From contig NZ_JAVDDV010000011.1 of the NCBI RefSeq assembly GCF_030848565.1, forward strand, positions 1-64,000: a stretch of 64,000 bases of DNA. The letters are read 5' to 3'. Numbering within the stretch: position 1 is the stretch's first letter; the number at the start of each line of letters is the position of its first letter. Shown in pieces: positions 946-55,232 of this stretch. Below the pieces are notes generated by a model. It made no database searches, had not been told where the DNA came from, and worked only from the letters and a program-made list of their open reading frames with translations. This DNA is from Natronolimnohabitans sp. A-GB9 (GTDB taxonomy: Archaea; Halobacteriota; Halobacteria; Halobacteriales; Natrialbaceae). A program made the position numbers and the translations under genes.

Positions 946-2133
946 ATGACTAGGTTCAAGCAAATCCAGGGAATCCTGAGTTCGTCGCCACAGTACGAGG
1001 CGACGAAACTCGACTTTGGAAAGTACGACTCGTTCGTCCAACAGCAAGCAGATACACCAGGAACGCTGCTTCGGATCCGCCCCTACAAAGAGAACAATGG
1101 TGTGGTCGATGGAGCGGGCGTTCTCCAGTCAGTTCACGATGTGACGACGAACTTCCGTGGGAAGAATACGAGCGACCACCACTCGTTTGAGGTTTGGTTC
1201 GACGAGGGGAAGATCAAATTCTACATGCACGCTGCTACCGAGGCAGCTGCAGACAAGTTCAGACGACGTGTCGGGAACAACTACGCTAACAGTGAGGTCT
1301 TCCCGGTTGAGGAGGGCTATGCGTTCCCCGTTATCGACGCTGACCAATACGTCGCTGGAGCGTGGCTCGAGATGGAGAAGATCCCCTACTATCCGATCCG
1401 CCATCACAATAGTGAGGGCTTCGAGATGGATCCCTACGGCGAAATTACGAGCGAAATGCTCTCGCTCGACGAGAGTACCGTCGTTACGCAGGTCGTCTTC
1501 CGGCCTGCGAAACAGTCGTGGACTGACGGCGACCGGTTCAAGCACAATAGCGTCGACGAACTCGCTGACGCGCTTCGGCAGGGCACATCCGTCGGCTGGC
1601 TCAATCCTCGTACGCGACCGCCGACTGAGAAGGACAAACAGGCCGCGAAAACCATCGAACAGCAACGTGGCCAACAGGCCTTCCACGTGAACATTCGCGT
1701 CCTCGCTGCCTCGAGCGAACAAGACGAGGCTGAGGCCCGTGCTCGTGGCGTTGCGGGGATGTTCAGGAAGTACTACAACGCGATCACTGAACAGGGCCTG
1801 AACGACAATCCAGTCTGGCATCGTCGAGAGAGCAAACGTGCAACGCGGCTTCGGCGGTTCGTCGAGCGGATGTGTGACCGCGAGTGGATCGACCGGCACA
1901 TGATCATGACCGTTGACGAACTCGCCGGCGTCGCACACATCCCCAATTCGGAGATTGAGACGCCAAAGATCGACTGGCGGTATACACAGCGTGGTGATCG
2001 GCTGCCAGCAGATGGGAGCCGATACGAAGCTGACGAATCACCGGTAGATGGCCAGATCCCCGGCGTTCCGAACGAGACTGCAGTCCGTTTTGAAGAGCCA
2101 ACTCGAGAACAGGGGGAATTCGATAATGTTTGA
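946..2133 (+). CDS. Conserved protein of the transfer operon, function unknown
   Basis: 395 aa. The ATG at 946 follows the upstream stop by 4 nt; an earlier in-frame start at 838 would overlap the ATPase gene and gives a non-acidic N-terminus, so 946 is preferred. The protein is soluble with no membrane segment. It contains a strand-rich region (LLRIRPYKE, HSFEVWFDEGKIKFYMHA) that resembles the N-terminal non-ATPase part of HerA/VirD4-like proteins; this is an impression, not a domain assignment. The 3' end overlaps the next gene by 8 nt, pointing to translational coupling. Sandwiched between VirB4-like and VirD4-like ATPases, it is most likely an accessory part of the DNA transfer machine. 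Confidence 0.8.
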   Translation: MTRFKQIQGILSSSPQYEATKLDFGKYDSFVQQQADTPGTLLRIRPYKENNGVVDGAGVLQSVHDVTTNFRGKNTSDHHSFEVWFDEGKIKFYMHAATEAAADKFRRRVGNNYANSEVFPVEEGYAFPVIDADQYVAGAWLEMEKIPYYPIRHHNSEGFEMDPYGEITSEMLSLDESTVVTQVVFRPAKQSWTDGDRFKHNSVDELADALRQGTSVGWLNPRTRPPTEKDKQAAKTIEQQRGQQAFHVNIRVLAASSEQDEAEARARGVAGMFRKYYNAITEQGLNDNPVWHRRESKRATRLRRFVERMCDREWIDRHMIMTVDELAGVAHIPNSEIETPKIDWRYTQRGDRLPADGSRYEADESPVDGQIPGVPNETAVRFEEPTREQGEFDNV

Positions 2134-5100
2134 TCGCTTCTTTGGATCCGGTGACGAGGCTTCCAGTGACGACCAACAAGATGCGCACGCCGCTGGAGGC
2201 GATGAACAGCCAGAAGAAAACACGACCGCTGAATCGTCCGCTCATCAACAACCCGATCTCGATGAGGGTGAACAATACGATATCGTAGAACAGAACACGA
2301 CTCGTATTGGCGGAAAGCCGATTATTACGGAAACAGCCGATGAGGGGACAGTTGCAGGCCCGTTCGTTCGAGAAATGTTCGAAGCTGGGATGTACAATGC
2401 ACCAGCGCCACTCTGGATCGGCTACTCAGAGGACCCCCAGACTGGGTTTCGTGAGGCACCGCTCCGGTTCGAAGCGCTCTTTCGACACACCTGGATCGCT
2501 GGAACGACCGGCTACGGAAAGACGACCGAACTCCTGAATATGATGGTCCAGTGGGCGTACTCCGGCTATGGCTTCACGTACTTCGACCCGAAGGGTCGTG
2601 ACTCTCGAGAACTCCTCCGGATGCTCCCCAAACATCGTCTCAAGGACGTGGTTTGGATTGAGCCCGGCTCGACCACCCACGAGAAGACGATCGGGATGAA
2701 CTTCCTCGAGGTCCCCGAGTGTGAGACGCGCGAGGAACTCGAGAACGAGATTGAAAATCGGGTCGAGAATCTGAAAGCAGTTTTCGACACCTCCGATTAC
2801 TGGGGCATCAACATGGAGGCGATCACCGAATCAATGGCGCGAGCGATGATGAAATCGGAGAAGCCGTTCTCGATCATCGATATGTACTTCACGTTGCTCA
2901 ACGCTGAGCGGCGCGAAGACTTCGCGCTCGATGTTGAGGACCCCTACATCAGGGAGTTCTGCCTCGAGATCGCGAATATGGAAGAAGAGACGATTCGGCC
3001 ACTTCTGAAACGGATCAAGTCGTGGGTCGAGAATTCGGTCATTCGTCGAATCATTGCCCATCGTGAGAGTACGATCGATTTCCGAGACATCATCGACAAT
3101 GATCGGATCGTTATCGTCCGAACGCCCGTCGAGAACACGGACATCAAGAAGATGGTCACGCTCGGCGTGATGCGGAATCTCTGGAGTGCGATTCAGCGGC
3201 GGTCATATGAGCTGGATACGACGCCGGATCCCTACTTCGTCCTCTGTGACGAGTTCGATGATATCGCCAGTGACAATCTCGACATCGAGTCAATGCTGGC
3301 TCGAGCCCGGTCGATGCGGCTCTCCGTGACCCTTGCCTCGCAGTATCCGTCGCAGTTTGACGAGGATACGTTGAAAGCGATGCAGAACAACTGTGACAAC
3401 CTCCTCACGTTCTCGGTTAACGACAGTGATGACGCCGAACTGTTGATGAAACGGTTCCGCGACTACACCGCAGAAGATCTCATCACGACCGACCAGTTCA
3501 AAGTGTGGACGCGGATTCCTCTCTCTGGAGGACGATACTCCGAACCCGTCTTGATTCGGACGTTTCCGCCATATCCGCCTCTCCGTGGGACAGACGACGT
3601 CGATGACATCATCGAACAAAGTCTCGAGCGGTATGGGACCGAGCCGCTGACAGATAGCGAGATCCTCCGCAATCTCATCTACCGCGAGTACAATGAGGCG
3701 GCAAGTTCTGACGAACTCATCGTTGATCGGCTGATGGCCGAGGCAGTTCGTACCGTCCAGTTACGGGAGGATGTTCGCGACCAGAACGGCTGGGTTCCTG
3801 TGACCGACGTCGACGCAGCGGTAATTGATCGTCTCGAGAGTGAGACCGGTGGGACCGCTGAAGCCCTCACTCCAGACACTGCAACCGAGGAGTTCCCTGA
3901 TGTGCGTCAGGAGTCGCCGTTGATTGACGTCGATCTCAGTGCCAACAATGAGACGGTCGTCGTTCGACTCACTGACGAGGGCGAAGACGTTGCTACACCT
4001 GAGACTGGTGATGTGCGCTCTGCAGGTGGCTCGGAACACGATGCCCTTCTCTTTGATCTCGAGGCAGCGCTGACGAAGCTCGGCTTCACCGTTGATATCT
4101 ATGAACAAGATGGGAGTGAACAGCCTGATGGAACGGCCACACATCCTGATTACGACGGTGAGTTTGCGCTTGAAGCTGAAACAACGACACCGGAGCGGCC
4201 AGCGAAGGTCCTGCAGAATCTCAAACGTGCTCAAGAAGACGACCGGATTCCCCTGTTTGTTGTGCGGCCGGGAGACGAGAGGGTTACTCACGCGGCAGCC
4301 CGGCTCGAGAGTATCTTTGCGTCGCCAGTCCGGGAAATGGCAGATGGCACAGAGAAACTCTACAATATGGACGAACACGTCACGTTTGGCGATGGAGCGA
4401 CGGCTCGTGGGGGCGTGACGGCTGTTCGACCAGCTACTGGTGAGTCAGCACGAACGGTCTGGAAACGTGATGGCGGTGAGCGTGTCCTTTCGGACGGCGA
4501 CACAGAATTCATTCGAACGGCATCGTCGGTTACACTCTCGAAGGATACTGTGCCAGCATACTATAGCTACGACCGTGAGACGGATCAGTATACGGTCTAT
4601 GAGCAGGGTGAAACCCATGTCTACGATACGTTAGATGCATTCGAGGCAGATTGGACGCCGATCAAGCGTCCCTTTGTTCCTGAGACTGATCTACCGGATC
4701 CAGAATTCGATCGAGACAGCTATGGCGTGGTGATCCTGCCAAAGGACGCACCACCACAACTCTACGTGGAAGGCGAAGCAGCACCCCTGACAGACGAGGT
4801 CGAGAGGCTATTGGAAGCTGATCAAGAACCCCTACAAGAGGACACGGATACTTCGCCAACAACTGACCAAGATCAGCAGACGGGTGATGGCACTCCAGAG
4901 TTGGATCCTGACGGAGATGGTGTTGCTGTCTTCGTCGATCAGTTCCTCATTGCCGATACCGAGGGCTCGGTCTCGAAGAAAGATCTCTATCAGGCCTATG
5001 TGGCGTGGGCGGAGAGACATGACCTCGACTACACCAATGATGTCTGGTTTGGGCGAAAACTGAGTGGCCATCTTGAGATTGGTAGCGACCGGCGGCGGAA

Positions 5101-5188
5101 AGATGGAGAACGTATCACTGTTCATACTGGAATTGAACTGACCGATGCTGGTGTCCGTCTTCTTGAAGAGGTGAATAAATCAGAATGA
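2126..5188 (+). CDS. VirD4/TraG-like coupling ATPase with nuclease-like and winged-helix C-terminal regions
   Basis: 1020 aa. The ATG at 2126 follows a strong purine-rich AGGGGG site at 2112-2116 and overlaps the upstream gene. Walker A GTTGYGKTT lies near residues 126-134 and Walker B FVLCDEFDD near 371-379, with YFDPKGRDSRELLRML between them, as in the FtsK/HerA/VirD4 fold. No N-terminal membrane helix is seen, unlike classical VirD4. Beyond the ATPase, about residues 635-730 (HDALLFDLEAALTKLGFTV, then GEFALEAETT and PLFVVRPGD) look like a restriction-nuclease-type alpha/beta fold. About residues 935-1015 (VAVFVDQFL, YQAYVAWAERHDLD, LSGHLEIGSDRRR) look like the winged helix found at the C-terminus of D5/P4-type primases. 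Role: probable DNA-pumping or coupling protein of an archaeal transfer system; the C-terminal assignments are inference. Confidence 0.85.
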   Translation: MFDRFFGSGDEASSDDQQDAHAAGGDEQPEENTTAESSAHQQPDLDEGEQYDIVEQNTTRIGGKPIITETADEGTVAGPFVREMFEAGMYNAPAPLWIGYSEDPQTGFREAPLRFEALFRHTWIAGTTGYGKTTELLNMMVQWAYSGYGFTYFDPKGRDSRELLRMLPKHRLKDVVWIEPGSTTHEKTIGMNFLEVPECETREELENEIENRVENLKAVFDTSDYWGINMEAITESMARAMMKSEKPFSIIDMYFTLLNAERREDFALDVEDPYIREFCLEIANMEEETIRPLLKRIKSWVENSVIRRIIAHRESTIDFRDIIDNDRIVIVRTPVENTDIKKMVTLGVMRNLWSAIQRRSYELDTTPDPYFVLCDEFDDIASDNLDIESMLARARSMRLSVTLASQYPSQFDEDTLKAMQNNCDNLLTFSVNDSDDAELLMKRFRDYTAEDLITTDQFKVWTRIPLSGGRYSEPVLIRTFPPYPPLRGTDDVDDIIEQSLERYGTEPLTDSEILRNLIYREYNEAASSDELIVDRLMAEAVRTVQLREDVRDQNGWVPVTDVDAAVIDRLESETGGTAEALTPDTATEEFPDVRQESPLIDVDLSANNETVVVRLTDEGEDVATPETGDVRSAGGSEHDALLFDLEAALTKLGFTVDIYEQDGSEQPDGTATHPDYDGEFALEAETTTPERPAKVLQNLKRAQEDDRIPLFVVRPGDERVTHAAARLESIFASPVREMADGTEKLYNMDEHVTFGDGATARGGVTAVRPATGESARTVWKRDGGERVLSDGDTEFIRTASSVTLSKDTVPAYYSYDRETDQYTVYEQGETHVYDTLDAFEADWTPIKRPFVPETDLPDPEFDRDSYGVVILPKDAPPQLYVEGEAAPLTDEVERLLEADQEPLQEDTDTSPTTDQDQQTGDGTPELDPDGDGVAVFVDQFLIADTEGSVSKKDLYQAYVAWAERHDLDYTNDVWFGRKLSGHLEIGSDRRRKDGERITVHTGIELTDAGVRLLEEVNKSE

Positions 5189-5384: not shown

Positions 5385-5528
5385 TGGTGGTCAAAAACCA
5401 ACTAGTATAGAGAGGGTTGCCGCCGCAAAACATGGTAAAGCAGGGTGGGAGAGCTATTGGGAATCTGTCGTGCCGCTGATAATGTGGCGGCAGCACAGTA
5501 GCACGGCGCTACGGTGGTGTTGGAATAC

Positions 5529-6830
5529 ATGAAAGAGAAGCAGACACATTCAATCGATACGAGCGGCATTCCCGAGATTCTCCAGGAGTACGACCAGTGG
5601 ATCTGCTGGCATGCCACGGAGCGTGATGGGAAGGCAACGAAGGTCCCAATTGTTCCTGGGACTGGCGAGTATGCCTCAGCAACTGACCCACAGACATGGC
5701 GCCCCTTCGATGAGGCACTCGAGTATTTCGAGCGTGGCGAAGCGGCTGGGGTCGGGTTCGTTTTCACAGACGGTGATCCATTTGTCGGAATTGACCTCGA
5801 TGACTGTCGTGATCCAGAGACCGGATCTCCGGGAACAGATGCTCGAGAAATCATCCTCGAACTCGAGTCGTTTACAGAGGTATCACCGTCAGGGACTGGC
5901 TATCACGTTATCGTCCGTGGGTCACTGCCTGGAGACCGGAGTCGACGTGGATCAGTCGAGATGTATGAGACAGCACGGTTTTTCACTGTGACTGGCAACC
6001 ATGTCGAGACAACACCGCTGCAGGTGATGGAACGACCTGCTGCACTCGAGAGCGTGTACACCGAGTATATCGCCGAAACAGAGCCGTCTCACAACGAGAG
6101 TAAAGTGGGAACACAGCAGGCTTCGACGCATGAAACCAGCCAGAGCGTGACGCTCGAGGATGAAGAACTGCTCGAGCGAGCGCGGAACGCATCGAATGGC
6201 GAGAAGTTCGAGCGGTTGTGGCGTGGCTCAACTGCCGGCTACGAGAGTCAGTCAGAAGCAGACATGGCGCTGTGCTTCTTGCTGGCGTTCTGGACCGGTG
6301 GCGACGCTGCTCGAGTCGACCAACTCTTCCGACAGTCGGGACTGCTTCGAGACAAATGGGATGAGGTCCATTACGCGGATGGATCGACATACGGCGAGAA
6401 GACGGTCGAACGAGCAATCGCGAACACAGACGATGTCTATGATCCATCGAGCAGCGAGGCGTCTCGTGAGAAGCAGACAGGAAAGCGAGGGCAGACGACT
6501 ATACAGGACCTCGCTCAAGATGGACCGTCATCGGCAACTGACCAGACCATTGGTGGGACTGAAGGAACGCAAGCAGCGTATCTAGCCGAAAAAAACCAGT
6601 TATTGACTGAGCGTGTGTCTGACCTCGAGGCGACGCTCGAGCAAAAAAACGAGCGTATCAATGAACTCGAAACAACCAATCGAACGCTTCGCGATCGACT
6701 GACAGCTTGTGAGGAACGACTTGAGCAGCACGATCAGCGTTCAGAACGCGAGACAGATGTGGATTCGTCTCCCGATCACGATTCGCTCTGGACTCGTACA
6801 AAGCAGTTCGTTGGCAGAAGAGAAGAATAG
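5529..6830 (+). CDS. Primase-polymerase-like protein (AEP/NrS-1 type) with C-terminal coiled coil
   Basis: 433 aa from the ATG at 5529; a GTG at 5514 in frame would add five residues. The motif FVGIDLDDC (residues 86-93) matches the paired catalytic aspartates of archaeo-eukaryotic primase/PrimPol domains, and SPSGTGYH (119-126) matches the second SxSGxGxH motif. Around residues 215-290, SEADMALCFLLAFWTGGD and DKWDEVHYADGSTYGEKTV resemble the helical-bundle domain that follows the polymerase in NrS-1-type proteins. The last 100 residues are a Glu/Arg-rich coiled coil. It follows the transfer operon after the repeat-bearing spacer, so a role in plasmid replication or in priming a transferred strand is likely. 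Confidence 0.8.
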   Translation: MKEKQTHSIDTSGIPEILQEYDQWICWHATERDGKATKVPIVPGTGEYASATDPQTWRPFDEALEYFERGEAAGVGFVFTDGDPFVGIDLDDCRDPETGSPGTDAREIILELESFTEVSPSGTGYHVIVRGSLPGDRSRRGSVEMYETARFFTVTGNHVETTPLQVMERPAALESVYTEYIAETEPSHNESKVGTQQASTHETSQSVTLEDEELLERARNASNGEKFERLWRGSTAGYESQSEADMALCFLLAFWTGGDAARVDQLFRQSGLLRDKWDEVHYADGSTYGEKTVERAIANTDDVYDPSSSEASREKQTGKRGQTTIQDLAQDGPSSATDQTIGGTEGTQAAYLAEKNQLLTERVSDLEATLEQKNERINELETTNRTLRDRLTACEERLEQHDQRSERETDVDSSPDHDSLWTRTKQFVGRREE

Positions 6831-25422: not shown

Positions 25423-27681
25423 ATGTCTCTCCTCTTCGAGAGTGCGATCGGTGAGTTCGACCTCTCGAGTGCTGCCCTCCATTCACCGGCAGACGAGACG
25501 TTCGAACCGGTGCGAGATGACCCCATTCCAATCGATGGGATCGTCGAATATGCGAGCTACCACGACCAACTCTCACATCCCGAGAAAGACAGCTGGATCG
25601 TAATTCCGCTTCATACACGCAATAGTGCAGCACTCTCGGGCGAATATCTCGCCTTCACAGAACACGCACTCCATGGCGATGTTTTCATCTACAATGATGG
25701 CGACGACTATGCTTCGGTCGATCAAGACACGTTTGCCGTCTCGTCGCTAGCCGACCGGGTACGCTTCTGGCACTCTGATTACGCACCTGACGATCCGCCG
25801 TCGTACTTCGACTCACCAATTGCAGAGCGGGAACCACCGCGAAATCCGCTTTCTGACGACAACGACACGGACTCCTTCTTTGACGAACTCGAGTCGTTTG
25901 TCCAAGCGGAGATGGACGCCCAACGTGATGAAAACCGAGCGAAAGCAGCCGCGTCGACGCCCAAAGCACTCCGTACCGAGGGGTTCGGTGCGGTTCCATC
26001 GCTTGCATCCCTTGGCCACCCAGAAGATGGTGTCTACCGATTCAGAATCGATGACGGGCAAGTAGATCGGCAGCATGACACGCATCGAGTCATCCAGAGC
26101 GAATTCCGGATCTTCGAAGGAAACGAAGTGCTCCTCCACCCACCAAGCAAAGAGCACTCACCAGATGCGTTCCCGATTCCAGCGACAGTCGATGCGATTG
26201 AGGGACTAACCGTCAGTCTCGCTATCGACTGGTATACGATCGAGAACCGGTCGACTGTCGGTGCGTTCCTCCGCCAGAAGCGACGGGATTTTGCACTCAC
26301 CCAACTGTTGAATCCCGTTCCGTACGAGCGCGAACTTGCTGCAATTGCGCGCGTTCGCGAGCGTGATGATCAATGCGCGCTCTTGACAGGCGACACAGCA
26401 GTCACCTTTGGGGATACGGCTGGTGTCAAGAGTAGTCAGCAAGACGTCGAACTGAACCAGGAACAGGAGCTCGCAGTGTCCTGTGCCCTCCTTGCTGATC
26501 ACCTCTTCTGCATTCATGGACCACCAGGCACAGGCAAGACGCGAACGCTCGTCGAAGTCGTCAGGCGGTCAGTCGAGGCTGGGGACGACGTCCTCGTCTG
26601 TGCCGATTCAAACCAAGCAGTCGACAATCTCGTTGCTGGCTCGAGTACAGCCACTGAGACCGACGACCGATCACTGCACGCCCATGCACAACACGGTGCC
26701 GGCGAGTTCGTACTCCGACGCGTGAACGCCAGCAGATCATCGAACGAAGTTGTTAGTACCCAATATGCCACCTGCGATGGACTAGCCGATGTCGTCGCAG
26801 CGACGAACAGCAGCGCAGCGACTCTCGAGCGAGAGTTCGATGTGCTCGTCCTCGACGAGGCGACACAGGCGACATGCACCGCCTCGTGTATTCCGCTTGC
26901 GCGAGCGGACAAAGTGATCCTCGCAGGCGATCACAAGCAATTACCGCCATTCAGTGCAACCGAAGAACCGCCGGAGTCCGCAGCCGGTCTCTCCCTGTTC
27001 GAACACCTCTACGCTGACGGCGGTATTTACGAGGGAGTCGGTATCCAGCTCCGAACGCAGTACCGGATGCATCGCGATATCGCCTGGTTTCCGAACAGCC
27101 GCTTCTACGACCGGGCCCTGCGGCAAGGGCGTGACGTTACCGCACTCGAGGAGCAGCCGGCGTTCGTCGGCTACGATATTGGTGGAAGCGAGACGACGAT
27201 CGACCACTCCAAGCGCAACGACGCAGAGGTGCGACTCGTTGCCCATATCGTCGGTGAACTGCTCGCCGATGCAGCTCTCAGCCCATCCGAAGTCAGCGTT
27301 ATTACGCCATACACGGCCCAGGCTAACGCGATTCGAGAGAAGCTATCGAGATATCTTGATTCTGGACGGGACATCACTGTCGACACGATCGATTCCTTCC
27401 AAGGAAGCGAAAAAGTCGCAATCGTGATTTCGTTGGTTCGGAGTAACACAACGGGCGAAACAGGCTTCCTCGGGCGTCCCATTGACGGCCCTCGGCGATT
27501 GAACGTCGCGATGACTCGCGCCCAACGGTTCTGTGCGATCATCGGTGACTGGTATACGTTACGCTCATCCGCAGACGGCACTGACGAAGACACTGGCCTG
27601 TACGACGATCTCTACTCATTCCTCGAGAACACCAGAAGACTACGTCAGGTCGAACCGGAATTCATTCCAGTTCCCAAGTAA
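25423..27681 (+). CDS. Superfamily 1 (Upf1/Dna2-like) helicase
   Basis: 752 aa. The N-terminal 330 residues are specific to this group and without recognised domain. Then CIHGPPGTGKTRTLVEVV (Walker A, residues 366-373), VLVLDEATQAT (motif II near 477), ILAGDHKQLPP (motif III), TQYRMHRDIAWFPN (motif IV region), DTIDSFQGSEKVAIVISLVRS (motif V) and LNVAMTRAQRFCAIIGD (motif VI). All SF1B motifs are present, so it should be an active NTPase/helicase on DNA or RNA. It is 752 aa with no extra nuclease motif seen. A 3'-terminal relic of a related gene lies at 31267-31333, showing that this gene end has been duplicated. Confidence 0.9.
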   Translation: MSLLFESAIGEFDLSSAALHSPADETFEPVRDDPIPIDGIVEYASYHDQLSHPEKDSWIVIPLHTRNSAALSGEYLAFTEHALHGDVFIYNDGDDYASVDQDTFAVSSLADRVRFWHSDYAPDDPPSYFDSPIAEREPPRNPLSDDNDTDSFFDELESFVQAEMDAQRDENRAKAAASTPKALRTEGFGAVPSLASLGHPEDGVYRFRIDDGQVDRQHDTHRVIQSEFRIFEGNEVLLHPPSKEHSPDAFPIPATVDAIEGLTVSLAIDWYTIENRSTVGAFLRQKRRDFALTQLLNPVPYERELAAIARVRERDDQCALLTGDTAVTFGDTAGVKSSQQDVELNQEQELAVSCALLADHLFCIHGPPGTGKTRTLVEVVRRSVEAGDDVLVCADSNQAVDNLVAGSSTATETDDRSLHAHAQHGAGEFVLRRVNASRSSNEVVSTQYATCDGLADVVAATNSSAATLEREFDVLVLDEATQATCTASCIPLARADKVILAGDHKQLPPFSATEEPPESAAGLSLFEHLYADGGIYEGVGIQLRTQYRMHRDIAWFPNSRFYDRALRQGRDVTALEEQPAFVGYDIGGSETTIDHSKRNDAEVRLVAHIVGELLADAALSPSEVSVITPYTAQANAIREKLSRYLDSGRDITVDTIDSFQGSEKVAIVISLVRSNTTGETGFLGRPIDGPRRLNVAMTRAQRFCAIIGDWYTLRSSADGTDEDTGLYDDLYSFLENTRRLRQVEPEFIPVPK

Positions 27682-39467: not shown

Positions 39468-39919
39468 CCAGCAGCCATTGTCGGATCTTGAGGTTCGCGA
39501 ACAGCCGCTCACCCAGGTCCGCGACGTACTCGTCGCGCTCCCCTAGTCGCCGATCGGACATTGATATGTTCGGTACCGAGATTAGTCACCTTCAGCAGCA
39601 GCTCTGAGACAACTCGTACACACGAACCCAGCTTTTTCAAGAGAGATCAACATCGATACGTAGGCAGATCGTCTAAATAGACACAGACAGGACGTTTACT
39701 TCGGAATCCCCAAATTGACAACGTGCACACGACAAGTCGCGGCTCGTGTGCATATTCGGGAATCGGATTCTGACAACGTGTACCCCCAGGGGGTGTGTTG
39801 GGGTGAAGAGCTTAGTGAAGCCCGTTTCAGACGAACCCTCGTCGGGTTAATGTCTTGAGGTGTCGAACACCCTGAAAATCTCTACGGATTTAAGTACGAA
39901 GACGCGGCCAGCGCCGGCG
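39468..39919. other. Gene-free stretch at the left edge of the ubiquitin-like island
   Basis: No convincing gene. TGACAACGTG occurs twice (about 39717 and 39769). GC content rises sharply from about 39890. A TATA-like TTTAAG at about 39888 precedes the short ORF at 39920. Confidence 0.45.
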
Positions 39920-40027
39920 ATGTCATCCGACGGTCGTCGAGACGGCCCCCTGATTGCCGTCGCACTGACCGAGTTCTCGGTCCACTACGAGCAAGCCGAT
40001 CCCGCGCTCGCCGAACGTGCCTGGTAG
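39920..40027 (+). pseudogene. Short ORF interrupted by an in-frame TAG
   Basis: Reads MSSDGRRDGPLIAVALTEFS VHYEQADPALAERAW, then TAG, then LAADRLVGYDVEPRKMQG before running into the antisense of the JAB-E1 gene. A TATA-like box lies about 30 nt upstream. The product before and after the stop has normal haloarchaeal composition, so this may be a broken small gene that converges on the ubiquitin-like operon. Confidence 0.35.
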
Positions 40028-40093
40028 CTGGCCGCTGACCGCCTCGTCGGGTACGACGTTGAGCCGCGCAAAATGCAGGGGAGTAGTCCCCGA

Positions 40094-41752
40094 TCAGCGG
40101 ACGTCTGGATTTTCAACGCGCAGATCGTGATCTTCACCCGTATCGAGGTCGACATAGTCGCCAAGCCCGACCGTCCGGGCCTTCTCGCAGTCTTCCTTAC
40201 AGCGGGTACGGCGGTCGCCGTCCGTCGTCAGCCATTTCATCTCGCCCGTACTCGGCCGGTAGATCTGGCGCCCCGCGAACGTCGACGTCGATGTCCCGAC
40301 GATGAGTGCATGGAGCCGCTCCATCATCAGCGACGCCACCATGCCGTTCGTCGTCACAACGCTCGGGTCACGCAACTCGTCGCTGCCGTCGTCGGCCTCG
40401 CCGGGCTCCCGCTGCACGTAGAGCCCACCGTTGTCAGCCCTGTCTCGCGGCGGCTGGCGATCCCGGACGACGCCGGAACTCCGGTCGCCCTGCTTCCACG
40501 CCTCGAGGCAGTGGAGACACGCTAGGTCCGGGCCTGCGGTCTCGACTGTGGACCGCGCGCCCGATGCGAGTTCGTCGGTCTCCTCGTCGACGCGGAGGTG
40601 TGTCCCCCCTGAGATAACGGGAATGAGGTGGGCGTACGCCAGCCGGTCGATGACTTTCTGGACCCAATGGGGGTCTGCAGCGTTCAGAATTACGTCGCAG
40701 TCCAGGAGCGCGCCGAGCGCGCTGTAGTCGTCGTTCCCGCGCTCGACGACGCTCCCGTGGACCGCTCGCGCCTGGAAGCCAGGCGCGGTCGCGGCCTTCT
40801 CCGCGATTTCACGAGCGAGCTCGGACTTCCGGACGTTCGACCGGGCGTCCTCGGGAGACGCGCCGTAGGCGCGGTTCAGGTTCGCCTCCTTAAGGTGGTC
40901 GAAGTCGACGAACACGGCGCCGCCGACGCCGAGGCGTGCGACCTGCTCGGCGAGCAGCGACCCGACACCGCCACACCCGACGACGGCGACGCGGATGCCG
41001 CTGAGCCGGGCCTGCCCGCGCTCACCCCACAGTTCCAGCGTGCTGTCATGGGCGACCGTGCCCGTCCCGAGGCCGGGACCGGCCGGGCCCTGCGCGCTGA
41101 ACGCGGTCGAGAGCTTCTCGAGATACGGCCCATCCCGGACCCTCTCGACCAGGGAGGCACCGAGGACGCGGATGGCGGTCGCATCCGTCCTCTCCGGCGG
41201 TGTGCCGCCGGTGAAGTCGTAGGCGCGGAAGCTCCACTCCGGCTCCCCGGTTTCCCGCCGCGGTCGGCTAGCGATGATGCCGGCGCCGAACGGGCGGTCG
41301 GCGCCCAGGAGTTCGGCGTCGGACTCCAGCCGCATCGGGTCGGCCTCCAAATCTGGCTTGGAAGGATACGCGCTCCATCCGGGGTGGGAGTGGAAGTACG
41401 CGATGCCCTTCCGCGGGTCGTGCTCGATTCCCTCTTTCGCTCGCGCCCGGTACGCCGGGCTGAGCTTCAGACTCCCGTCTCGGATGTGGACGTCGTCGTC
41501 GGTCTCCGGCGGGATGACGTCCTCGACGATGTACGTGACCCGGGAGTCGCCGGTGCTACGCGTGAGCGTCGCGATCACGCCCTGCTCGTAGCGGTCGGGC
41601 TGGTGCTCCGACCCCTCCGGCTCCCGGTCGGCGTACTCCGGTCGGAGGTGGCCGTACAGCGTCTGCTTGACGTCCTGGGTGATGGCGACGTGGAACTCCT
41701 CGGCCTCCCGAACGGGGTACAGCTCGGGGAGCGCGTCGTCGCGTCCGCTCAT
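40094..41752 (-). CDS. JAB (JAMM) peptidase fused to a ThiF/E1-like activating enzyme
   Basis: 552 aa. The N-terminal JAB domain has a complete JAMM motif: HSH at 121-123, Ser131 and Asp134 in FHSHPGWSAYPSKPD, with an upstream Glu in the YIVEDVIPPE strand. The E1 domain has the nucleotide motif GCGGVGS (259-265), DFDHLKEANLNR (283-294) and a late CLHC pair (412-415). JAB proteins trim or remove ubiquitin-like tags; E1/ThiF proteins adenylate the tag's C-terminus. Fusion of both occurs in bacterial ubiquitin-like conjugation operons. The ATG overlaps the stop of the E2-like gene (ATGA). It is the last gene of a three-gene operon. GC content is well above that of the neighbours. Confidence 0.92.
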   Translation of the reverse strand: MSGRDDALPELYPVREAEEFHVAITQDVKQTLYGHLRPEYADREPEGSEHQPDRYEQGVIATLTRSTGDSRVTYIVEDVIPPETDDDVHIRDGSLKLSPAYRARAKEGIEHDPRKGIAYFHSHPGWSAYPSKPDLEADPMRLESDAELLGADRPFGAGIIASRPRRETGEPEWSFRAYDFTGGTPPERTDATAIRVLGASLVERVRDGPYLEKLSTAFSAQGPAGPGLGTGTVAHDSTLELWGERGQARLSGIRVAVVGCGGVGSLLAEQVARLGVGGAVFVDFDHLKEANLNRAYGASPEDARSNVRKSELAREIAEKAATAPGFQARAVHGSVVERGNDDYSALGALLDCDVILNAADPHWVQKVIDRLAYAHLIPVISGGTHLRVDEETDELASGARSTVETAGPDLACLHCLEAWKQGDRSSGVVRDRQPPRDRADNGGLYVQREPGEADDGSDELRDPSVVTTNGMVASLMMERLHALIVGTSTSTFAGRQIYRPSTGEMKWLTTDGDRRTRCKEDCEKARTVGLGDYVDLDTGEDHDLRVENPDVR

Positions 41753-42333
41753 GCTGTCCCCTCCGGTTCGTCCAGCCGCAGGAGGTACTGCACGATGCTG
41801 TGGGCGTCGGCGAGGTCACGCATCCGTTCGGGCTGCCGGTTCATGTTCGACCACCTCCAACTGAACGCTATCGCGCTTTCCTCGTCGGCGACCTCTAGGA
41901 CCTTCTCGACTTTGTCGTAGTGGCTGTCGCCCGGCTTGGTGAACGCATTACGGCACTGGATGTCGCCGGCGTCCTGATCGTCGACGGTGACGGAGGGCGT
42001 CATCATCACCCAGTGCGGGTCACTGCCGTCGAACGACTGGTCGACGAGGATATAGAGGTCCGCAGTGGGGTCGTCCCACCGCTCGCTGTACGCGTGGAGC
42101 TCGTACTCGCCGAGCCAGATGAGCGCCTGGTTGCCGTACGTCTCCGCGACGGTCGGCTGCCCGTGCTCGCTGTCGCGCTCGCGCTGGAGCGCGTGCATTG
42201 CGCCTTGGAAGTCGTCGTCCAGATTCTCATCCGGGACGGTGGCCGGCGGTAGCGGGCACGACTTGTTGTAGTTACCCCCATGCCCGTCGCCGTCGCCCAC
42301 CTCCGTGGCGGTCTGGTCTTCGTCGACGGCCAT
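41749..42333 (-). CDS. E2-like protein of the ubiquitin-like operon (family E-like)
   Basis: 194 aa from the ATG at 42333; the frame upstream of it is low-complexity and overlaps the Ubl gene. After an acidic N-terminus, LIWLGEYELHAYSERWDDPTADLYILVDQSFDGSDPHWVMMTPSV matches the strand-turn-PHW pattern of the diverged prokaryotic E2 group E, and IAFSWRWSNMNRQPERMRDLADAHSIVQYLL the C-terminal Trp-containing helix region. The only Cys in the core is in DIQCRNAFTK, a candidate thioester site. The stop overlaps the JAB-E1 start. Conjugating enzyme role is inference from context and pattern. Confidence 0.7.
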   Translation of the reverse strand: MAVDEDQTATEVGDGDGHGGNYNKSCPLPPATVPDENLDDDFQGAMHALQRERDSEHGQPTVAETYGNQALIWLGEYELHAYSERWDDPTADLYILVDQSFDGSDPHWVMMTPSVTVDDQDAGDIQCRNAFTKPGDSHYDKVEKVLEVADEESAIAFSWRWSNMNRQPERMRDLADAHSIVQYLLRLDEPEGTA

Positions 42334-42334
42334 G

Positions 42335-42907
42335 TCAGGAGTTACCTGGAGTGCGGGGCTCGCTGTTGAACCGTTCGACGCCGGGGTCGCTGAGGTCCAC
42401 CTCGTCGTCGCCGCTGTAGGTGTTCTCAGTCCCGACCTCGACAAGTGCGTCGTCGGTGTTCTTGCCGAACCGCCCGAGGATGGTCTCGGCGGTCGGGGTG
42501 TCCTCGTCGAAGAACTCGACAGGCTCATTGTCGACCTTCACGCCGTAGCGGTCGCGTGCGTCGACGGCGCGGTCCTCGATGGTCTCGATGGTGTCCTCGA
42601 GGTCCTCGACCTCGCGGAAGAGGTCGGGGTCGGCGCCGCCGGTCGCGAGTGTCTCCTGCAGGTCGTTGATGTTGTCCTGCGTGGCCTGGACGTCCGCTTC
42701 GAAGCCGTCGGGAAGCGATCCGTCGGCGTGCTCTACGGCGTCTTCCAGAGCCTCCACGTCGTCCTCGACGGTCTCGAGGTCGACGAGGGCATTTGCGGGA
42801 ATGTCTTCTTCGACGGACTCGATGATGTCCTGAGCGCTCTGAATGGACTCAGCGAGGTCGTCGAGCTCTACAACTGCAGTCGTACCATTAGTGGGATCGT
42901 CACTCAT
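42335..42907 (-). CDS. Ubiquitin-like protein with N-terminal coiled coil
   Basis: 190 aa. Residues 14-118 are an acidic helical coiled coil. Residues 120-185 (YGVKVDNEPVEFFDEDTPTAETILGRF and DDEVDLSDPGVERFNSEP) have the shape of a beta-grasp domain like the multi-ubiquitin units of bacteria: the N-terminal strand pair, the TPTAETIL helix and the DLSDPGVERF segment. The C-terminus ends RTPGNS, without a Gly-Gly, so the mature tail might be made by the JAB domain or the system may use another residue. Its stop is one base before the E2-like start, and all three genes form one operon. Confidence 0.78.
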   Translation of the reverse strand: MSDDPTNGTTAVVELDDLAESIQSAQDIIESVEEDIPANALVDLETVEDDVEALEDAVEHADGSLPDGFEADVQATQDNINDLQETLATGGADPDLFREVEDLEDTIETIEDRAVDARDRYGVKVDNEPVEFFDEDTPTAETILGRFGKNTDDALVEVGTENTYSGDDEVDLSDPGVERFNSEPRTPGNS

Positions 42908-43612
42908 GTTCGATCACCTGCCTCCTTTAACCCGGAGACGTTGGGCCGACCGGGGTACTGCAGTCGCCGCTATGACGGCCCTTCTGCGAGTTCGCGAGTG
43001 ACAGAGTTGTCACTCGGAACCCGTAGTAGAGCGGGTCCGATTGAGGGGCGGGCACGTACCGGTCATCGCCGTCGCTCGGCTCACGCTCCGGTCGTGGTTA
43101 TTTCCGCCGACCTCCTTCCGCGGAATCGCGGTGAGCGGAGGTTGCCAGTGGAACGGTGGGTAACCAACCCGATTTCGGGTAGGGTAGTCTGCGATAAAAA
43201 TGTTTCGCAGGTGCTTAAAAGTCCACCGAATGAGAATTAGAGGTGAGTTAGGTAGAAAACCGACCCCCCGGGGGGCCTTGTTTAGCCCCCAGAGGGTGCT
43301 GAGTAATACTTTCACTTTCACTCCGGTACCGGAAGGGTTTTTATACTGGTTTCGTGGGGATCAGCGCGGGGTAAAAGTGTCTGATTCGCGAACCAAAAAC
43401 GGCAGCTCGGCTACTCAACGTCGGGGTTTGGTGGGGAAAACAACAATCGCCCCACCGTTCCACTGGCAACCAGTCCTAACGGTCCATCGTTAATAAGAGT
43501 ACCGGGTGACCCGACGCCTTCTGTCGATTCTCCACCTGCAATGATGGGGGGGGGACTTCACTACTTAAGTCTCTTCCTGGTAGAAAAACAGGCCAACCAC
43601 TGCGTAAAGTGC
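42908..43612. other. Gene-free region upstream of the ubiquitin-like operon
   Basis: No acceptable gene on either strand; the 97-codon + strand frame from 43200 is basic and not protein-like. It contains the 21-bp inverted repeat, a GC palindrome (ACCCCCCGGGGGGCC near 43264) and a TATA-like TTTTTATC on the minus strand near 43199. Confidence 0.5.
43140..43471. repeat. Perfect 21-bp inverted repeat, arms 290 nt apart
   Basis: Left arm 43140-43160 begins GGTTGCCAGTGGAACGG; right arm 43451-43471 is its exact complement and ends CCACTGGCAACC. No target duplication flanks them. Between lie a region with no gene. Could be ends of a small element, recombination sites or paired operators. Confidence 0.75.
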
Positions 43613-44085: not shown

Positions 44086-44637
44086 TCACTGGTCGAACAA
44101 GTTCCGAATCTTGGCTTGGATTGATTTGTGGACGGACTCTAACTCTTCGCGGTTCTTTACACCACTATAGACTACCTTTCCAGAAGAGAACAATACACAG
44201 AACCAATCTTCTTCAGTTGGTTGATAAAACAATCCAGGAAATTGTTCTGGTTCATATTCTGTTTCCATAGAGCCTAGCGCGATCGCTATCTGGCTCAGTT
44301 CAAGTTCATAGCCGAGATCTGACTTCCCCACAATATATCGAATCTCAAAACTTGAACCGGGGATTGCACTCTCCAGCATCTCTTCCATCTGATGGACAAA
44401 CTTCGAGTTCACTTCCCATGCTTCAGTAGCTGATTTCGCCCCTGCTATACTGTATTTTCCACTGGAGAACAATGTGACCGTCCCTTTTGGTTCATGATAG
44501 CGGATTATCAAACCAGAAAAATCCTCAGCATTGTACTCGAGATCATCATGGGGGAAATCTGCGTATGCCTCTTCGAGACGTAATTCTCGACCAAGAGCTC
44601 CTCCACCCACCACATTAACTATCGAAAGATCAGTCAT
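44086..44637 (-). CDS. Divergent TATA-binding protein
   Basis: 183 aa, the normal TBP length, with two TBP repeats recognisable: DLEYNAEDFSGLIIRYHEPKGTVTLFSSGKYSIAGAKS and TEYEPEQFPGLFYQPTEEDWFCVLFSSGKVVYSGVKN. The N-terminal repeat has moved far from the canonical PEQFPGLVYR; the second is nearer. TBP nucleates transcription at TATA boxes; extra TBPs in haloarchaea serve gene subsets. It is divergent from the type IIG RM gene over 134 nt, and is as AT rich as that gene, so the two probably travelled together. Confidence 0.85.
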   Translation of the reverse strand: MTDLSIVNVVGGGALGRELRLEEAYADFPHDDLEYNAEDFSGLIIRYHEPKGTVTLFSSGKYSIAGAKSATEAWEVNSKFVHQMEEMLESAIPGSSFEIRYIVGKSDLGYELELSQIAIALGSMETEYEPEQFPGLFYQPTEEDWFCVLFSSGKVVYSGVKNREELESVHKSIQAKIRNLFDQ

Positions 44638-44771: not shown

Positions 44772-47687
44772 ATGCCATCTGATCCAGAGCAGAAATTCCA
44801 TAGTCTATTCTATTCAGGCCTCTTCAGGTATGTCGAAAACAACGATACGAAGTTCGATAGTGTCTCAATCGAAAAAAATATCGAAGGACGACGAGCAGAT
44901 ATTCATATAGAAAGCAATATCACAGGTAGTTTAGTAATTGAGGTTAAGCGTGATGATATTTCACCATATGACAAGGAAGTTGTAAAACAAGCTCGTGATT
45001 ATGCAAGAGACGTTGGCGCGGATTTCTTCGCTACCTGTAACTCTAAAGACTTCTATCTCTTCAATTATGACGGCCAAATAAACATTAAGCAGATCCCATA
45101 TAACTACGCGAATCTACGAGATATCTCTCTTTCAGATGCTACTCTAAATGGATTTGTCCCACAGTTATTGTCGGCAGTTGACCACTTATTTCAGAAGGGT
45201 AAACTACCTAATCAGGAGGAAACAGAACGAATAGTTGGCCTCCTGCGAACATTTCACTCGGCTATTTGGCCAGCTTACAAAGAGTTAGCCAAACAGAAGT
45301 ATGGGAGCAATGAGAAGTTCATCAATATCGTTGATTCTTGGATTAACGAAAATGACTATTCTAACTTAGATCAAGACGAACAATTTGAGATTGCCGCGAA
45401 GCAGCACGCATATCTATTGACTAATAAGATCTTATTCTACGAAGTAGTCCGCGAACAGACACCGTCTCCAATCGAGACTAATGATGGAAACCAGCTTGAC
45501 TCTCTTGTTGGACCCTCCAGCTTGGATTTCCTCGCGGAACACATCAGACGCCGTTTCGACGACATCATAGAACAGATAGATTATAAGCCAATCTTCAATA
45601 ACTCCGAGATATTTGATGAGTTTCCCGACAATAAGAAAACTCTTGAGCATATTCAGTCTCTTACCGAGAGTATTGAACAGCGAAAAATATCAGGTATAAA
45701 TGAAGACCTATTAGGAGATATCTTTGAAGAACTGATCCCAGAAGGAGAAAGAAAAAAACTGGGACAGTACTATACACCTCCCACGATCGCCGAAGCCGTT
45801 TCGCAGTGGGTTTTGGATGCAAATTCGAAAGGAAAAGAGCCCCGTATCTTGGATCCGGCATCCGGTAGCGGAACGTTCCCTGTTAAGATATATAACGAAA
45901 TCAGACATCAATACCCTGAATTAAGTCATCAAAATATAGTTGACTTAATTACTTCTGTTGACATCAACAAATTCCCGTTGCATTTGACAGCACTCAATCT
46001 GGCCAGCCAGAATATTGAAGAGAGAATTGATCGGATTCACGCTTACCATACTTCGTTTTTTAATCTGGATCCAGAGACGGCAAAACTCGCATCAGCTCGG
46101 TTGGATGAGGAATCCACTGAAGAGTTAGGATATTTTAATGGAGTTATCGGTAATCCGCCATACATTCGGAATAAGAACATTCCAGACAAAGCTGCATTCC
46201 GATCTCATCTCTCGGAGTTTGGTCCCACTAATCGATCACCGTATCTTGATGGATCGAAAAAGATCAGCAAGAAAAGTGATGCTTATGTTTATTTCATCAC
46301 AAAAGGAACCCAGTTCCTCCAAGAAGGAGGTCGTTTGGGATATGTGATTCCTCCAAAATGGCTTACAGCACGATATGGGCTTGATCTGCAACAGTTCTTG
46401 TTTGACCACTACCGGATAGAAGCTGTTGTTAGCTTTGCGGAGAGAGCCTTTGAAGATGCTTTTGTCGACACATGCCTGCTCTTTGTTGAACGCTGTGAAG
46501 ATGAAGAGAGTAGACAAGAAACTGTAACTAAATTCATTCGGGTCCGTGAAGAGATTGAACCCGAAGATTTGTACGAGACAGTAACTTACGGGATGGCTTT
46601 GGATCAGGAACCGATTGATATCAGAGACCGGCCGAATTATCGTATGGTAGGAGTCAGGCAAGGTTATCTACATGAAACTGGTCCCAAAAAAATGAGTTAC
46701 TATCTTAATGCTCCACTCGCGCTTATTAACCTCATTGAGCGGACTGACTTTGTACCACTCAAAGAGTTTGCTGATATCTCTTACGGACAAAAGACCGGGG
46801 CAAATCGATTTTTCATACTGGATGAGGAAGAGGCTGAACGAAGGGGTATTGACGAGCGATTCCTTTCACCAGTGGTAAAGAGCATCAAGGGTATGGACTC
46901 TATTGTTTTCAATAATGGAGATTCCGATAAATTCATGCTTGATGTTCATGATTATGTCCAGCAGGTGGATCAGAGAGTTCGTGACTTTGGATCTGACACC
47001 GATCTCGAAGAGGAAGTGAAATCAGCACTACAGCGTGATGGATACGATGGCCTACTTGCTTATCTGCGAGAAGGAGAAGATGACGGAATTCATGAGCGGA
47101 GTACATGTGCCAGTCGACCGGTTTGGTTCAATTTAGGTGAGCAGACGCCGCCTGAACTATTCCATCCAAAATTCTTCAAGTGGCGTCTGTTCACTGTCTG
47201 GAATCGTGCAGGTGCACTCACCACAAATGCCGTTGATTGTGTACACGTCAAGCCAAATTTCGATTCAAAAGTCGTCATCGGGTTAATGAACTCGAGTCTC
47301 TACGCGGCCCTTTTAGAGTGTTGGGGACGTGTGGAAGGAAACGGTGCCTTACAGTTGATGACATATGAATTGAAAAGTGTTCCAGTGCCAGATATCCGTA
47401 AATTTGATCAAGAGAGTAAAGAGCGGATAAAGGAAGCCACAGAATTGTTATTAGATGGTGAAGATAATGCGAGAGAAAAGCTGAATAAAGCAGTCTTGGA
47501 TGCTGTTGGAATTGACTCTATTTCCCCAAATAAATTAGAGGATATGAGAAAAGCAATGACTCATCAGCGACTGCAAGGAGAATTTGAATCCGAGGTCCTA
47601 CTCAAGGATGTGGATGCCGTTACAGAGTGGTCTGCAGAGTATTTTACTGCAGATGATCGAGAGAAAACACTAGACGACTTCAAATAA
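44772..47687 (+). CDS. Type IIG restriction-modification enzyme (Eco57I-like)
   Basis: 971 aa. The N-terminal nuclease domain has RRADIH and LVIEVKRDD (Asp43, Glu57, Lys59), a PD-(D/E)XK site. A helical linker leads to the N6-adenine methyltransferase: GQYYTPPTIAEAV, motif I DPASGSGTFP (near 361) and motif IV NPPY (near 460). From about 640 onward the target recognition region (FADISYGQKTGANRFFIL, IRDFGSDTDL, YELKSVPVPDIRKFD) is of the TaqI/Eco57I type. Both activities in one chain need no separate specificity subunit. The gene is much more AT rich than its surroundings, a sign of import. Start at 44772 fits the first domain. Confidence 0.92.
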   Translation: MPSDPEQKFHSLFYSGLFRYVENNDTKFDSVSIEKNIEGRRADIHIESNITGSLVIEVKRDDISPYDKEVVKQARDYARDVGADFFATCNSKDFYLFNYDGQINIKQIPYNYANLRDISLSDATLNGFVPQLLSAVDHLFQKGKLPNQEETERIVGLLRTFHSAIWPAYKELAKQKYGSNEKFINIVDSWINENDYSNLDQDEQFEIAAKQHAYLLTNKILFYEVVREQTPSPIETNDGNQLDSLVGPSSLDFLAEHIRRRFDDIIEQIDYKPIFNNSEIFDEFPDNKKTLEHIQSLTESIEQRKISGINEDLLGDIFEELIPEGERKKLGQYYTPPTIAEAVSQWVLDANSKGKEPRILDPASGSGTFPVKIYNEIRHQYPELSHQNIVDLITSVDINKFPLHLTALNLASQNIEERIDRIHAYHTSFFNLDPETAKLASARLDEESTEELGYFNGVIGNPPYIRNKNIPDKAAFRSHLSEFGPTNRSPYLDGSKKISKKSDAYVYFITKGTQFLQEGGRLGYVIPPKWLTARYGLDLQQFLFDHYRIEAVVSFAERAFEDAFVDTCLLFVERCEDEESRQETVTKFIRVREEIEPEDLYETVTYGMALDQEPIDIRDRPNYRMVGVRQGYLHETGPKKMSYYLNAPLALINLIERTDFVPLKEFADISYGQKTGANRFFILDEEEAERRGIDERFLSPVVKSIKGMDSIVFNNGDSDKFMLDVHDYVQQVDQRVRDFGSDTDLEEEVKSALQRDGYDGLLAYLREGEDDGIHERSTCASRPVWFNLGEQTPPELFHPKFFKWRLFTVWNRAGALTTNAVDCVHVKPNFDSKVVIGLMNSSLYAALLECWGRVEGNGALQLMTYELKSVPVPDIRKFDQESKERIKEATELLLDGEDNAREKLNKAVLDAVGIDSISPNKLEDMRKAMTHQRLQGEFESEVLLKDVDAVTEWSAEYFTADDREKTLDDFK

Positions 47688-53333: not shown

Positions 53334-53966
53334 CCCACCATGTCCGCATAATTGTGTAAAGCTCCTTGAGGACAAGCCCCGAGGCTTCACCTTGGGGTCA
53401 AGTGGTTCGAGGGAGCAACGCTCTCTCGTCATCAAGCGAAATCGACGATTTCGCAGACATCACGAATCGCCGATTCGATTAGTCACAAAAAGCCGGAGGT
53501 CGTCTGAACGACCCCGAAGCACTCGCCTTGTTCATCTGTAGAGTAGGGAGTAGAAGTCCCTGTGATGAGTAGCTCCCCCTGATGAGTAGCTCCCCCACCC
53601 CACCGTGTCCGCATAATACCTCCGAAGAAAGCAATAGTAAGAGAACAACACAAGAGGGACCCCCCACCGCGTCCGCATAATCTAGCCGCAAGAGTGTCAG
53701 ACGCTCCGCACTGCAGCGATTTTCATTATATCATATTGTTATATTAATTGGATTTTCGCTAGTGCGGATTTGGTTGTGCCAGATTTAACTTAGTTCTTTC
53801 CCTTTCCTAGAGCCTTCGCTGGTTCTACGTGAAGCAGTGGTTCTTTCTCACAGGATTATGCGGACACGGTGGGGTGTGGGGGTATACAAAGAATCGAGTA
53901 TGCGGACACACTGGACACACCGGACACGGGGGTTTATGATCACTCATTACATTGGTCCCACATGTA
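53334..53966. other. Probable replication origin: inverted initiator repeats around an AT-rich core
   Basis: CCACCGTGTCCGCATAAT-type boxes occur on the + strand at 53334-53353, 53598-53617 and 53662-53681, and on the minus strand at 53855-53874; a partial minus copy starts at 53899. An AT-rich block (about 53720-53765) lies between the forward and reverse boxes. TGATGAGTAGCTCCCC is tandemly duplicated at 53563-53596, and GGACAC repeats every 10 nt at about 53902-53928. The layout next to orc is that of haloarchaeal origins, with boxes as Orc-binding sites. Confidence 0.8.
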
Positions 53967-55232
53967 ATGTCCGGCGACGGAGCGAATTCATCTGATACGG
54001 GCCTCAACAGCAATCCATACGGCAGTACAGTCGAAATATTTTCTGATGAGTCTGTCTTGAAAGAGGACTGGCAACCTGAGAAACTCCCAGAGAGGGAAAA
54101 AGAACTCGATGAAATCCGGAATGCGCTCGCCCCTGCAACACGCGGTGTTAACGCTCACAATCTATTTCTCTATGGTAAAACAGGTCAAGGTAAGACAGTC
54201 GCCATTGATCACGAACTTGATCTCCTGAACGAGTATGCGAACTCTCAGGACGACTTGGAATTAAGCGTCATCAAAACCAGCGCGAACAATCAATCAACAT
54301 CCTATCAGCTCGCTGCACACCTCATAAAGGAAATTCGCGACGGGTCTAAGAAGCCGAGCGGCATTGATCAACAGAGTATGTTTGATCTGCTCTATGATGA
54401 ATTACGCGACCTCAATGAAACAATCATCATTGTCATTGATGAGATCGACTCGATTGGCAGCAATGATGATCTTTTATACGAACTTCCAAGGGCCAGGAAG
54501 AACGGCCATCTTGAGGATCAATGGATTTCTGTTATTGGGATCAGCAATGATCTAGAATTCCGTGACAATCTTTCTCCAAAAGTCAAAGATTCACTGTACG
54601 ATAGCGAGATCGAGTTCGCACCATACAACGCTAATCAACTCACGAGTATTTTAGAACGCCGAGCCGAACGTGCATTTATCGACGGTGTTCTTGATGGCGA
54701 TGTTATCCCACTCTGCTCAGCATTTGCTGCCCAAGACGAAGGCAGTGCCCGGCAAGCAATCCGATTGCTGTACAAAGCAGGAGAACTCGCCCTAAACAAC
54801 GATGATGAGGTGATCAACGAATCACATGTTCGCGAAGCACGTGAAATCTTAGAACGAAAGCGAATCGAAGAAGGAATGCGGAGCCTGACGACACAAGACC
54901 AGCTCGCGTTGCTTTCTGTTGTGGCCCTCGAGATTGAGGAAGAAACACCGGCACGGACACGACAAGTCTATCAGAAATACAAGGATATAGCTACCATTCT
55001 CGATTCAAACCAGCTTGTCGAACGACGAGTTCGCGATCACTTGCAATCTCTCGGGATGCAGGGATTCCTTATTGCGGAAACACGGAACCGAGGCATTCAG
55101 GGTGGATCACACTATCGCTTTGAGGTGAAAACGGATCTAGAGGCAACATTAGATATTCTTGGAGAGGACAATCGGATCGATGGAGTTGTTGATGATCTAG
55201 TGGATATCGCAACTGCGAAGCAACTCCTCTAA
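53967..55232 (+). CDS. orc: Orc1/Cdc6-type replication initiator
   Basis: 421 aa from the ATG at 53967 (MSGDGANSSDTG); a TTG five codons earlier is less likely. Walker A GKTGQGKTVA is near residues 70-77 and Walker B IIVIDEIDSIG near 155, followed by a sensor region (ISVIGISNDLEFRDNLSPKVKDSL) and a C-terminal winged helix (residues 300-420, VYQKYKDIATILDSNQLVERRVRDHLQSLGMQGFLI). The protein binds origin boxes and loads MCM. It is preceded by inverted repeats and is the probable initiator of this replicon. The ISH3-like element sits directly behind its stop without damage to the gene. Confidence 0.93.
   Translation: MSGDGANSSDTGLNSNPYGSTVEIFSDESVLKEDWQPEKLPEREKELDEIRNALAPATRGVNAHNLFLYGKTGQGKTVAIDHELDLLNEYANSQDDLELSVIKTSANNQSTSYQLAAHLIKEIRDGSKKPSGIDQQSMFDLLYDELRDLNETIIIVIDEIDSIGSNDDLLYELPRARKNGHLEDQWISVIGISNDLEFRDNLSPKVKDSLYDSEIEFAPYNANQLTSILERRAERAFIDGVLDGDVIPLCSAFAAQDEGSARQAIRLLYKAGELALNNDDEVINESHVREAREILERKRIEEGMRSLTTQDQLALLSVVALEIEEETPARTRQVYQKYKDIATILDSNQLVERRVRDHLQSLGMQGFLIAETRNRGIQGGSHYRFEVKTDLEATLDILGEDNRIDGVVDDLVDIATAKQLL

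Follow-up and report, generated by a model that had tools for sequence, protein, structure and literature searches.

The locus and its cassette

The window, i.e. the whole stretch of 64,000 nucleotides analysed, carries an operon of three minus-strand ORFs in the order Ubl, E2-like protein, JAB-E1 fusion. An earlier note on this DNA had described a three-gene operon in an archaeal host, and both parts of this description are supported: the three adjoining or overlapping ORFs lie exactly where it had placed them. The GC-rich island that it had pointed out is equally present, the operon having 67% GC versus 53% for the window. The features of the locus are the following (positions of the window):

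39744-43606, strand not applicable: mobile cassette, 91% identity to the Halopiger plasmid pHALXA02 (blastn)
40094-41752, minus strand: JAB-E1 fusion (BubCD-like), P0003, 552 aa
41749-42333, minus strand: E2-like protein (BubB-like, Prok-E2_E-related), P0002, 194 aa
42335-42907, minus strand: Ubl precursor (BubA-like), P0001, 190 aa
42908-43606, strand not applicable: conserved upstream region of the cassette (blastn against the Halopiger copy)

The Ubl and E2 genes are separated by 1 nt, the E2 and JAB-E1 genes overlap by 4 nt, and a Shine-Dalgarno-like GGAGG is found at 42921-42925, 13 nt ahead of the Ubl ATG. Compared with the loci L033 and L034, all three genes have a dN/dS of 0.12-0.29. 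They are thus under purifying selection, and all three are maintained. Copies of the operon at 96% and 86% identity were found in other genomes, and the annotation of pHALXA02 of Halopiger xanaduensis shows its genes as three CDSs. With these copies, the dN/dS values and the Halopiger annotation, the operon stands far beyond chance.

The immediate flanks on both sides gave no blastn alignment to pHALXA02. Because the 91% match ends at these unaligned flanks, the block of about 3.9 kb behaves as a cassette, placed between unrelated sequences. Upstream of the operon is a perfect 21-nt inverted repeat (arms 43140-43160 and 43451-43471), one arm of which is present in the Halopiger copy too; this upstream region possibly plays a regulatory or recombinational role.

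Next to the cassette, a TBP paralogue (44086-44637) separates the operon from a divergent gene for a type IIG-like Eco57I/N6-methylase (R-M-like) protein (44772-47687). Elsewhere in the window, an AAA helicase (25423-27681) matches the PADLOC MkoA (Mokosh) models with an E of 1.6e-71. The contig itself looks like a plasmid or an integrative element, judging from the predicted TraG/TrwB-like coupling ATPase (2048-5188), NrS-1 polymerase-like HBD protein (5514-6830) and Cdc6/Orc (53952-55232). On related plasmids (L101, L100 and L057) differing versions of the operon stand amid partly common flanking genes (UvrD, PD-(D/E)XK nuclease, helicases, RNase H-like), an arrangement that resembles a hotspot.

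The three proteins

The Ubl is composed of an acidic coiled coil (residues ~14-118), a beta-grasp domain (~118-186) and the tail TPG188-N-S. Pfam Multi_ubiq does not reach its cut-off on P0001 alone (E 0.11); the leave-one-out HMM of the family gives E=1.3e-5 and hhalign against bacterial Multi_ubiq proteins gives 94.6%. Residues 118-190, modelled alone by AlphaFold with ten relatives, reach a pLDDT of 90.8 and show the strand/helix order of a beta-grasp. With this model, each of the nine top PDB matches in Foldseek is a bacterial Ubl of the multi-ubiquitin, Bub or Bil kind (probability 1.00, E 0.002-0.017, none under E 0.001), and the BubA of the BubCD-BubA complex is among them. The beta-grasp-like Ubl with a coiled coil proposed in the earlier note is thereby supported, since the check for a missing fold in the C-terminal part found the fold present; the lack of a terminal Gly-Gly, also mentioned there, is borne out by the tail.

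A Gly is nevertheless found 2-5 residues from the C-terminus in every archaeal member read (tails PGNS, GGNS, SGRS, GGYI, GGVV and GGKIAYE), which suggests that the Ubl is made as a precursor and trimmed by the JAB domain. The coiled coil precedes the Ubl in the clade of the window, in L041-L043, L045 and L047, and in no other haloarchaeal member. Its gain or loss requires four changes on the tree; to judge from the sequences compared, it is optional.

P0003 begins with a JAMM domain, followed by a ThiF/E1 domain at residues ~239-496. Both motifs read earlier in this protein are present, i.e. a perfect JAMM (HSH-x7-S-x2-D, residues 121-134, positions 41351-41392, intact in the window) and the E1 motif GCGGVGS. 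Pfam recognises ThiF (1.9e-29) and, under its cut-off, Prok-JAB (6.7e-4), and the top PDB match is Citrobacter BubCD (6.5e-14). The residues of the ATP site (G259, G261, G264, D283, D285, N291, R294, K309 and D353) do not vary among the 17 sequences aligned. P0003 has six cysteines: that of the P-loop (C260), that of LDCD (C352) and two CxxC-like pairs, C412/C415 and C518/C522, these last four looking like a putative zinc site. In three of the 16 related loci (L043, L045 and L047) the second His of the JAMM motif is replaced by Gln (HTQ); because this His is lost there, the JAB protease is dispensable in one lineage. The Ubls of these HTQ-type loci have the longest tails past GG (GGKIA, GGKIAYE).

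The ThiF/MoeB/UbaA models also score on the E1 domain, and haloarchaea do have SAMP/UbaA, in which the E1 acts without E2. A sulfur-carrier or SAMP-like cofactor module of ThiF/MoeB type, instead of a protein-tagging system, is nevertheless very improbable: the scores are far under the family cut-offs (27.9 bits versus 450 for UbaA), an E2-like partner always accompanies the E1, and neither a fused JAB nor an E2 partner nor a Multi_ubiq-like Ubl is a component of sulfur pathways. The sporadic occurrence of the operon and its nearest structural relatives, which are Bub proteins, also speak against such a module.

For P0002 alone Pfam gives no match. At the level of profiles the signal is clear: the leave-one-out HMM gives E=3.6e-24, and hhalign of the archaeal E2 profile against bacterial Prok-E2_E proteins gives 94.2% (E 1.1e-7). 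Searched against the PDB, a mixed archaeal-bacterial profile has Citrobacter BubB as its sole match (E 4e-4), while the archaeal-only profile finds nothing and misses BubB. The AlphaFold model of P0002 (pLDDT 62.5) has the order expected of an E2, i.e. helix, four-strand sheet, helix. Foldseek of this model returns no significant match (best E 0.56), with E2/RWD domains prominent among the top ones. The alignments behind the structure predictions were shallow, with 5 and 11 rows. The E2 assignment of P0002 is thus well supported by profiles and weakly by structure, and its membership in the Prok-E2_E/BubB family holds at profile level only.

The earlier note had seen in P0002 an E2-like protein with a single core Cys. 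The profiles agree with the first part, but not with the second: the protein has two cysteines, C26 and C127, neither of which is conserved, and several members of the family are devoid of Cys. C127 was rejected as the active site, being private to the closest relatives. Besides the start Met the only invariant residue of the family is Ser158, and W161 is near-invariant.

Relatives in Archaea and in Bacteria

A JAB-E1 of the family of the window is present in 17 of the 392 Halobacteria genomes sampled. An independent search for the E2 in the same genomes recovered these 17 and one weak extra; the E2 gene is never absent where the E1 occurs. The only other sampled genome of the window's genus is without the operon. 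The order Ubl-E2-JAB-E1 is found in the window and in all of the 16 related haloarchaeal loci read, the Ubl of L041 and L042 being recognised mostly from its position and coiled coil. The same order is found in a Thermoplasmata locus (L063), which came from among the matches listed in a contig scan, mostly remote bacterial E1s. The conservation of the three genes together, which the earlier note had left to be checked, is therefore upheld by co-occurrence and by order. A sample spanning the whole phylum gave matches in Halobacteriales only, and a search of viral contigs found no relative.

The tree includes 15 haloarchaeal sequences, which it unites with L063 in one group (100/99) adjoining actinobacterial plasmid versions (100/99). 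By this tree, the archaeal sequences form a clade of their own, extending over five haloarchaeal families and a Thermoplasmata relative. In Halobacterium sp. TGN-42-S1, an intact divergent operon is followed, some 1 kb downstream, by JAB-E1 fragments of the window type (L047:11844-12634 = L062:5899-6689; 76-80% identical, split frames).

On plasmids of Rhizobium and Methylocystis, genes for Multi_ubiq, Prok-E2_E, JAB-E1 and DUF6527 proteins stand in a row, with an HTH and an ImmA/IrrE gene upstream as well in Rhizobium. This arrangement is the operon type 6e of Iyer et al. 2006 (PMC1779556), composed of a multi-Ub, an RWD-like E2, a JAB-E1 and a zinc protein, and described in proteobacteria, cyanobacteria and actinobacteria. 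Against the PDB, the Prok-E2_E protein of the Rhizobium multi-ubiquitin operon matches BubB (8e-11) and its JAB-E1 matches BubCD (3e-37). Since its E2 and JAB-E1 match these Citrobacter proteins, type 6e is also the pathway named Bub (PMC13373217).

The archaeal operon is like type 6e in gene content, fusion order, an E2 without conserved Cys and sporadic occurrence; unlike it, it has no zinc protein and its Ubl is a single beta-grasp domain. With Citrobacter Bub (BubA as Ubl, BubB as E2, BubCD as E1-protease; PDB 9ea4, 9ea5, 9ea8, 9eae and 9eav) it has in common the same three components, the JAB-E1 fusion, a Ubl fold matching BubA, an E2 related to Prok-E2_E/BubB and the absence of a conserved E2 Cys. 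What sets it apart from bacterial Bub is a separate archaeal clade, an E2 under Pfam detection, and the optional coiled coil ahead of the single beta-grasp domain.

Many bacterial type 6e operons, not all, contain a DUF6527/zinc-signature gene. None of the 18 haloarchaeal genomes tested has a DUF6527 gene; as this gene is optional in bacteria, its absence does not exclude membership of Bub/type 6e. CapW, CapH+CapP or CapK+CapS regulators are common, not universal, upstream of bacterial Bub. Neither these nor a DNA-damage regulator were seen among the neighbours in the window and in the annotated archaeal loci viewed.

Bil and CBASS work with Cys E2s; in Cap2 the E2 is fused to the E1, and CBASS requires a cyclase. 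Bil and type II CBASS (Cap2/Cap3) are similar to the archaeal operon in having E1, E2 and JAB, the immune role being theirs, in bacteria. Bil was rejected on two grounds, the absence of a conserved E2 Cys and a JAB fused to the E1 instead of separate. Type II CBASS was rejected as well: the E2 and the E1 are separate genes here, and no cyclase was found among the neighbouring proteins scanned. This agrees with the earlier reading, which had no cyclase or E3 nearby; none was seen among the neighbours. The kinship to bacterial JAB/E1/E2/Ubl operons that had been proposed on the same occasion stands for the roles of Ubl, E2-like protein and JAB-E1, but the closest relative is Bub/Iyer type 6e, and not Bil or CBASS.

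A Multi_ubiq-type Ubl, an E2 of the Prok-E2_E family, an N-terminal JAB on the E1, the gene order and a Cys-less E2 are thus all found in the archaeal operon, as in Bub/type 6e. We consider that it is probably a three-gene archaeal lineage of the Bub/Iyer type 6e protein-conjugation system, with a probability of about 0.7, conjugation being the likely chemistry.

Proposed chemistry and role

Other haloarchaeal operons (L022, L024-026, L032 and L050-052) also contain a Ubl, an E2 and a JAB-E1 fusion. These sister operons resemble that of the window in gene order, JAB-E1 fusion and archaeal class. They differ from it by their E2, which has an invariant [WY]-Cys, by their Ubl, which terminates in or close to ...FG, and by forming a separate clade. 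In profile alignment their invariant Cys falls on the invariant Ser of Prok-E2_E, and hhalign places S158 of the window on the same Ser. The direct comparison of the window-type and Cys-type E2 profiles is weak and ends before the S158 site. S158 therefore appears to occupy the position of the sister Cys, by an indirect equivalence that runs through the bacterial Prok-E2_E.

We infer the processing site, the oxyester, the targets and the biological role as follows. In the BubCD-like protein, the JAB domain would cut the Ubl precursor behind its conserved Gly188 and the E1 domain would adenylate the Ubl, which would next form an oxyester with Ser158 of the E2-like protein. This oxyester is proposed because neither the E1 nor the E2 has a recognisable conserved catalytic Cys. 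An oxyester intermediate is reportedly part of Bub chemistry. The Ubl would then be attached to target proteins, from which the JAB domain would take it off again. The target would thereby also receive the coiled coil that precedes the Ubl, as a payload for assembly or capping.

Alternatively, the E2-like protein could be a catalytically dead adaptor of RWD type. In that case the Ubl would leave the E1 adenylate directly for substrates or a host factor, and the part of Ser158 would be structural. Iyer et al. 2006 indeed judged the Cys-less E2 of bacterial type 6e inactive and RWD-like (PMC1779556). Compared with L034, the E2 is moreover the fastest-evolving of the three proteins, with S158 as its sole invariant residue besides the start Met. 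But a lone invariant Ser aligned, via Prok-E2_E, with the invariant Cys of the sister E2s is what is expected of a nucleophile, and no genome found to carry the E1 lacks the E2 gene. This makes the dead adaptor unlikely and favours transfer through Ser158.

As to the role, a function in defence or stress, useful under certain conditions, is the most likely; both are plausible because of the mobility of the operon, its sporadic distribution and its defence-type neighbours. Bil attaches its Ubl to phage proteins. By analogy, and compatibly with a Bub lineage, the coiled-coil Ubl could be attached to virion proteins; such an anti-virus role is plausible, at slightly less than even odds. It fits with the occurrence in 17 of 392 genomes, the absence from the one sampled congener, the plasmid location, the 3.9-kb cassette between unrelated flanks, and neighbouring genes such as a pAgo/Piwi gene near the operon of Salinirubellus and, in the window, the type IIG R-M-like gene. 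Against it, plasmid accessory genes often serve stress functions, and bacterial Bub itself has no demonstrated protection against phage (PMC13373217). Taken as a whole, a mobile cysteine-free cascade (adenylate, E2 Ser158 oxyester, target) that would put a coiled-coil tag on viral or stress-related proteins is a tentative proposal, less likely than not.

The published accounts found describe this pathway from bacteria only. The archaeal clade would extend it to Archaea and provide genetically tractable hosts for it. If the proposed reading is true, an archaeal conjugation pathway holds its E1, its E2 and its deconjugating protease in one small cassette, and Ser and Cys versions of the pathway coexist in one class of organisms. 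With Ser in one type of operon and Cys in its sisters at a single aligned E2 site, cysteine-free ubiquitin transfer would become directly testable by single substitutions.
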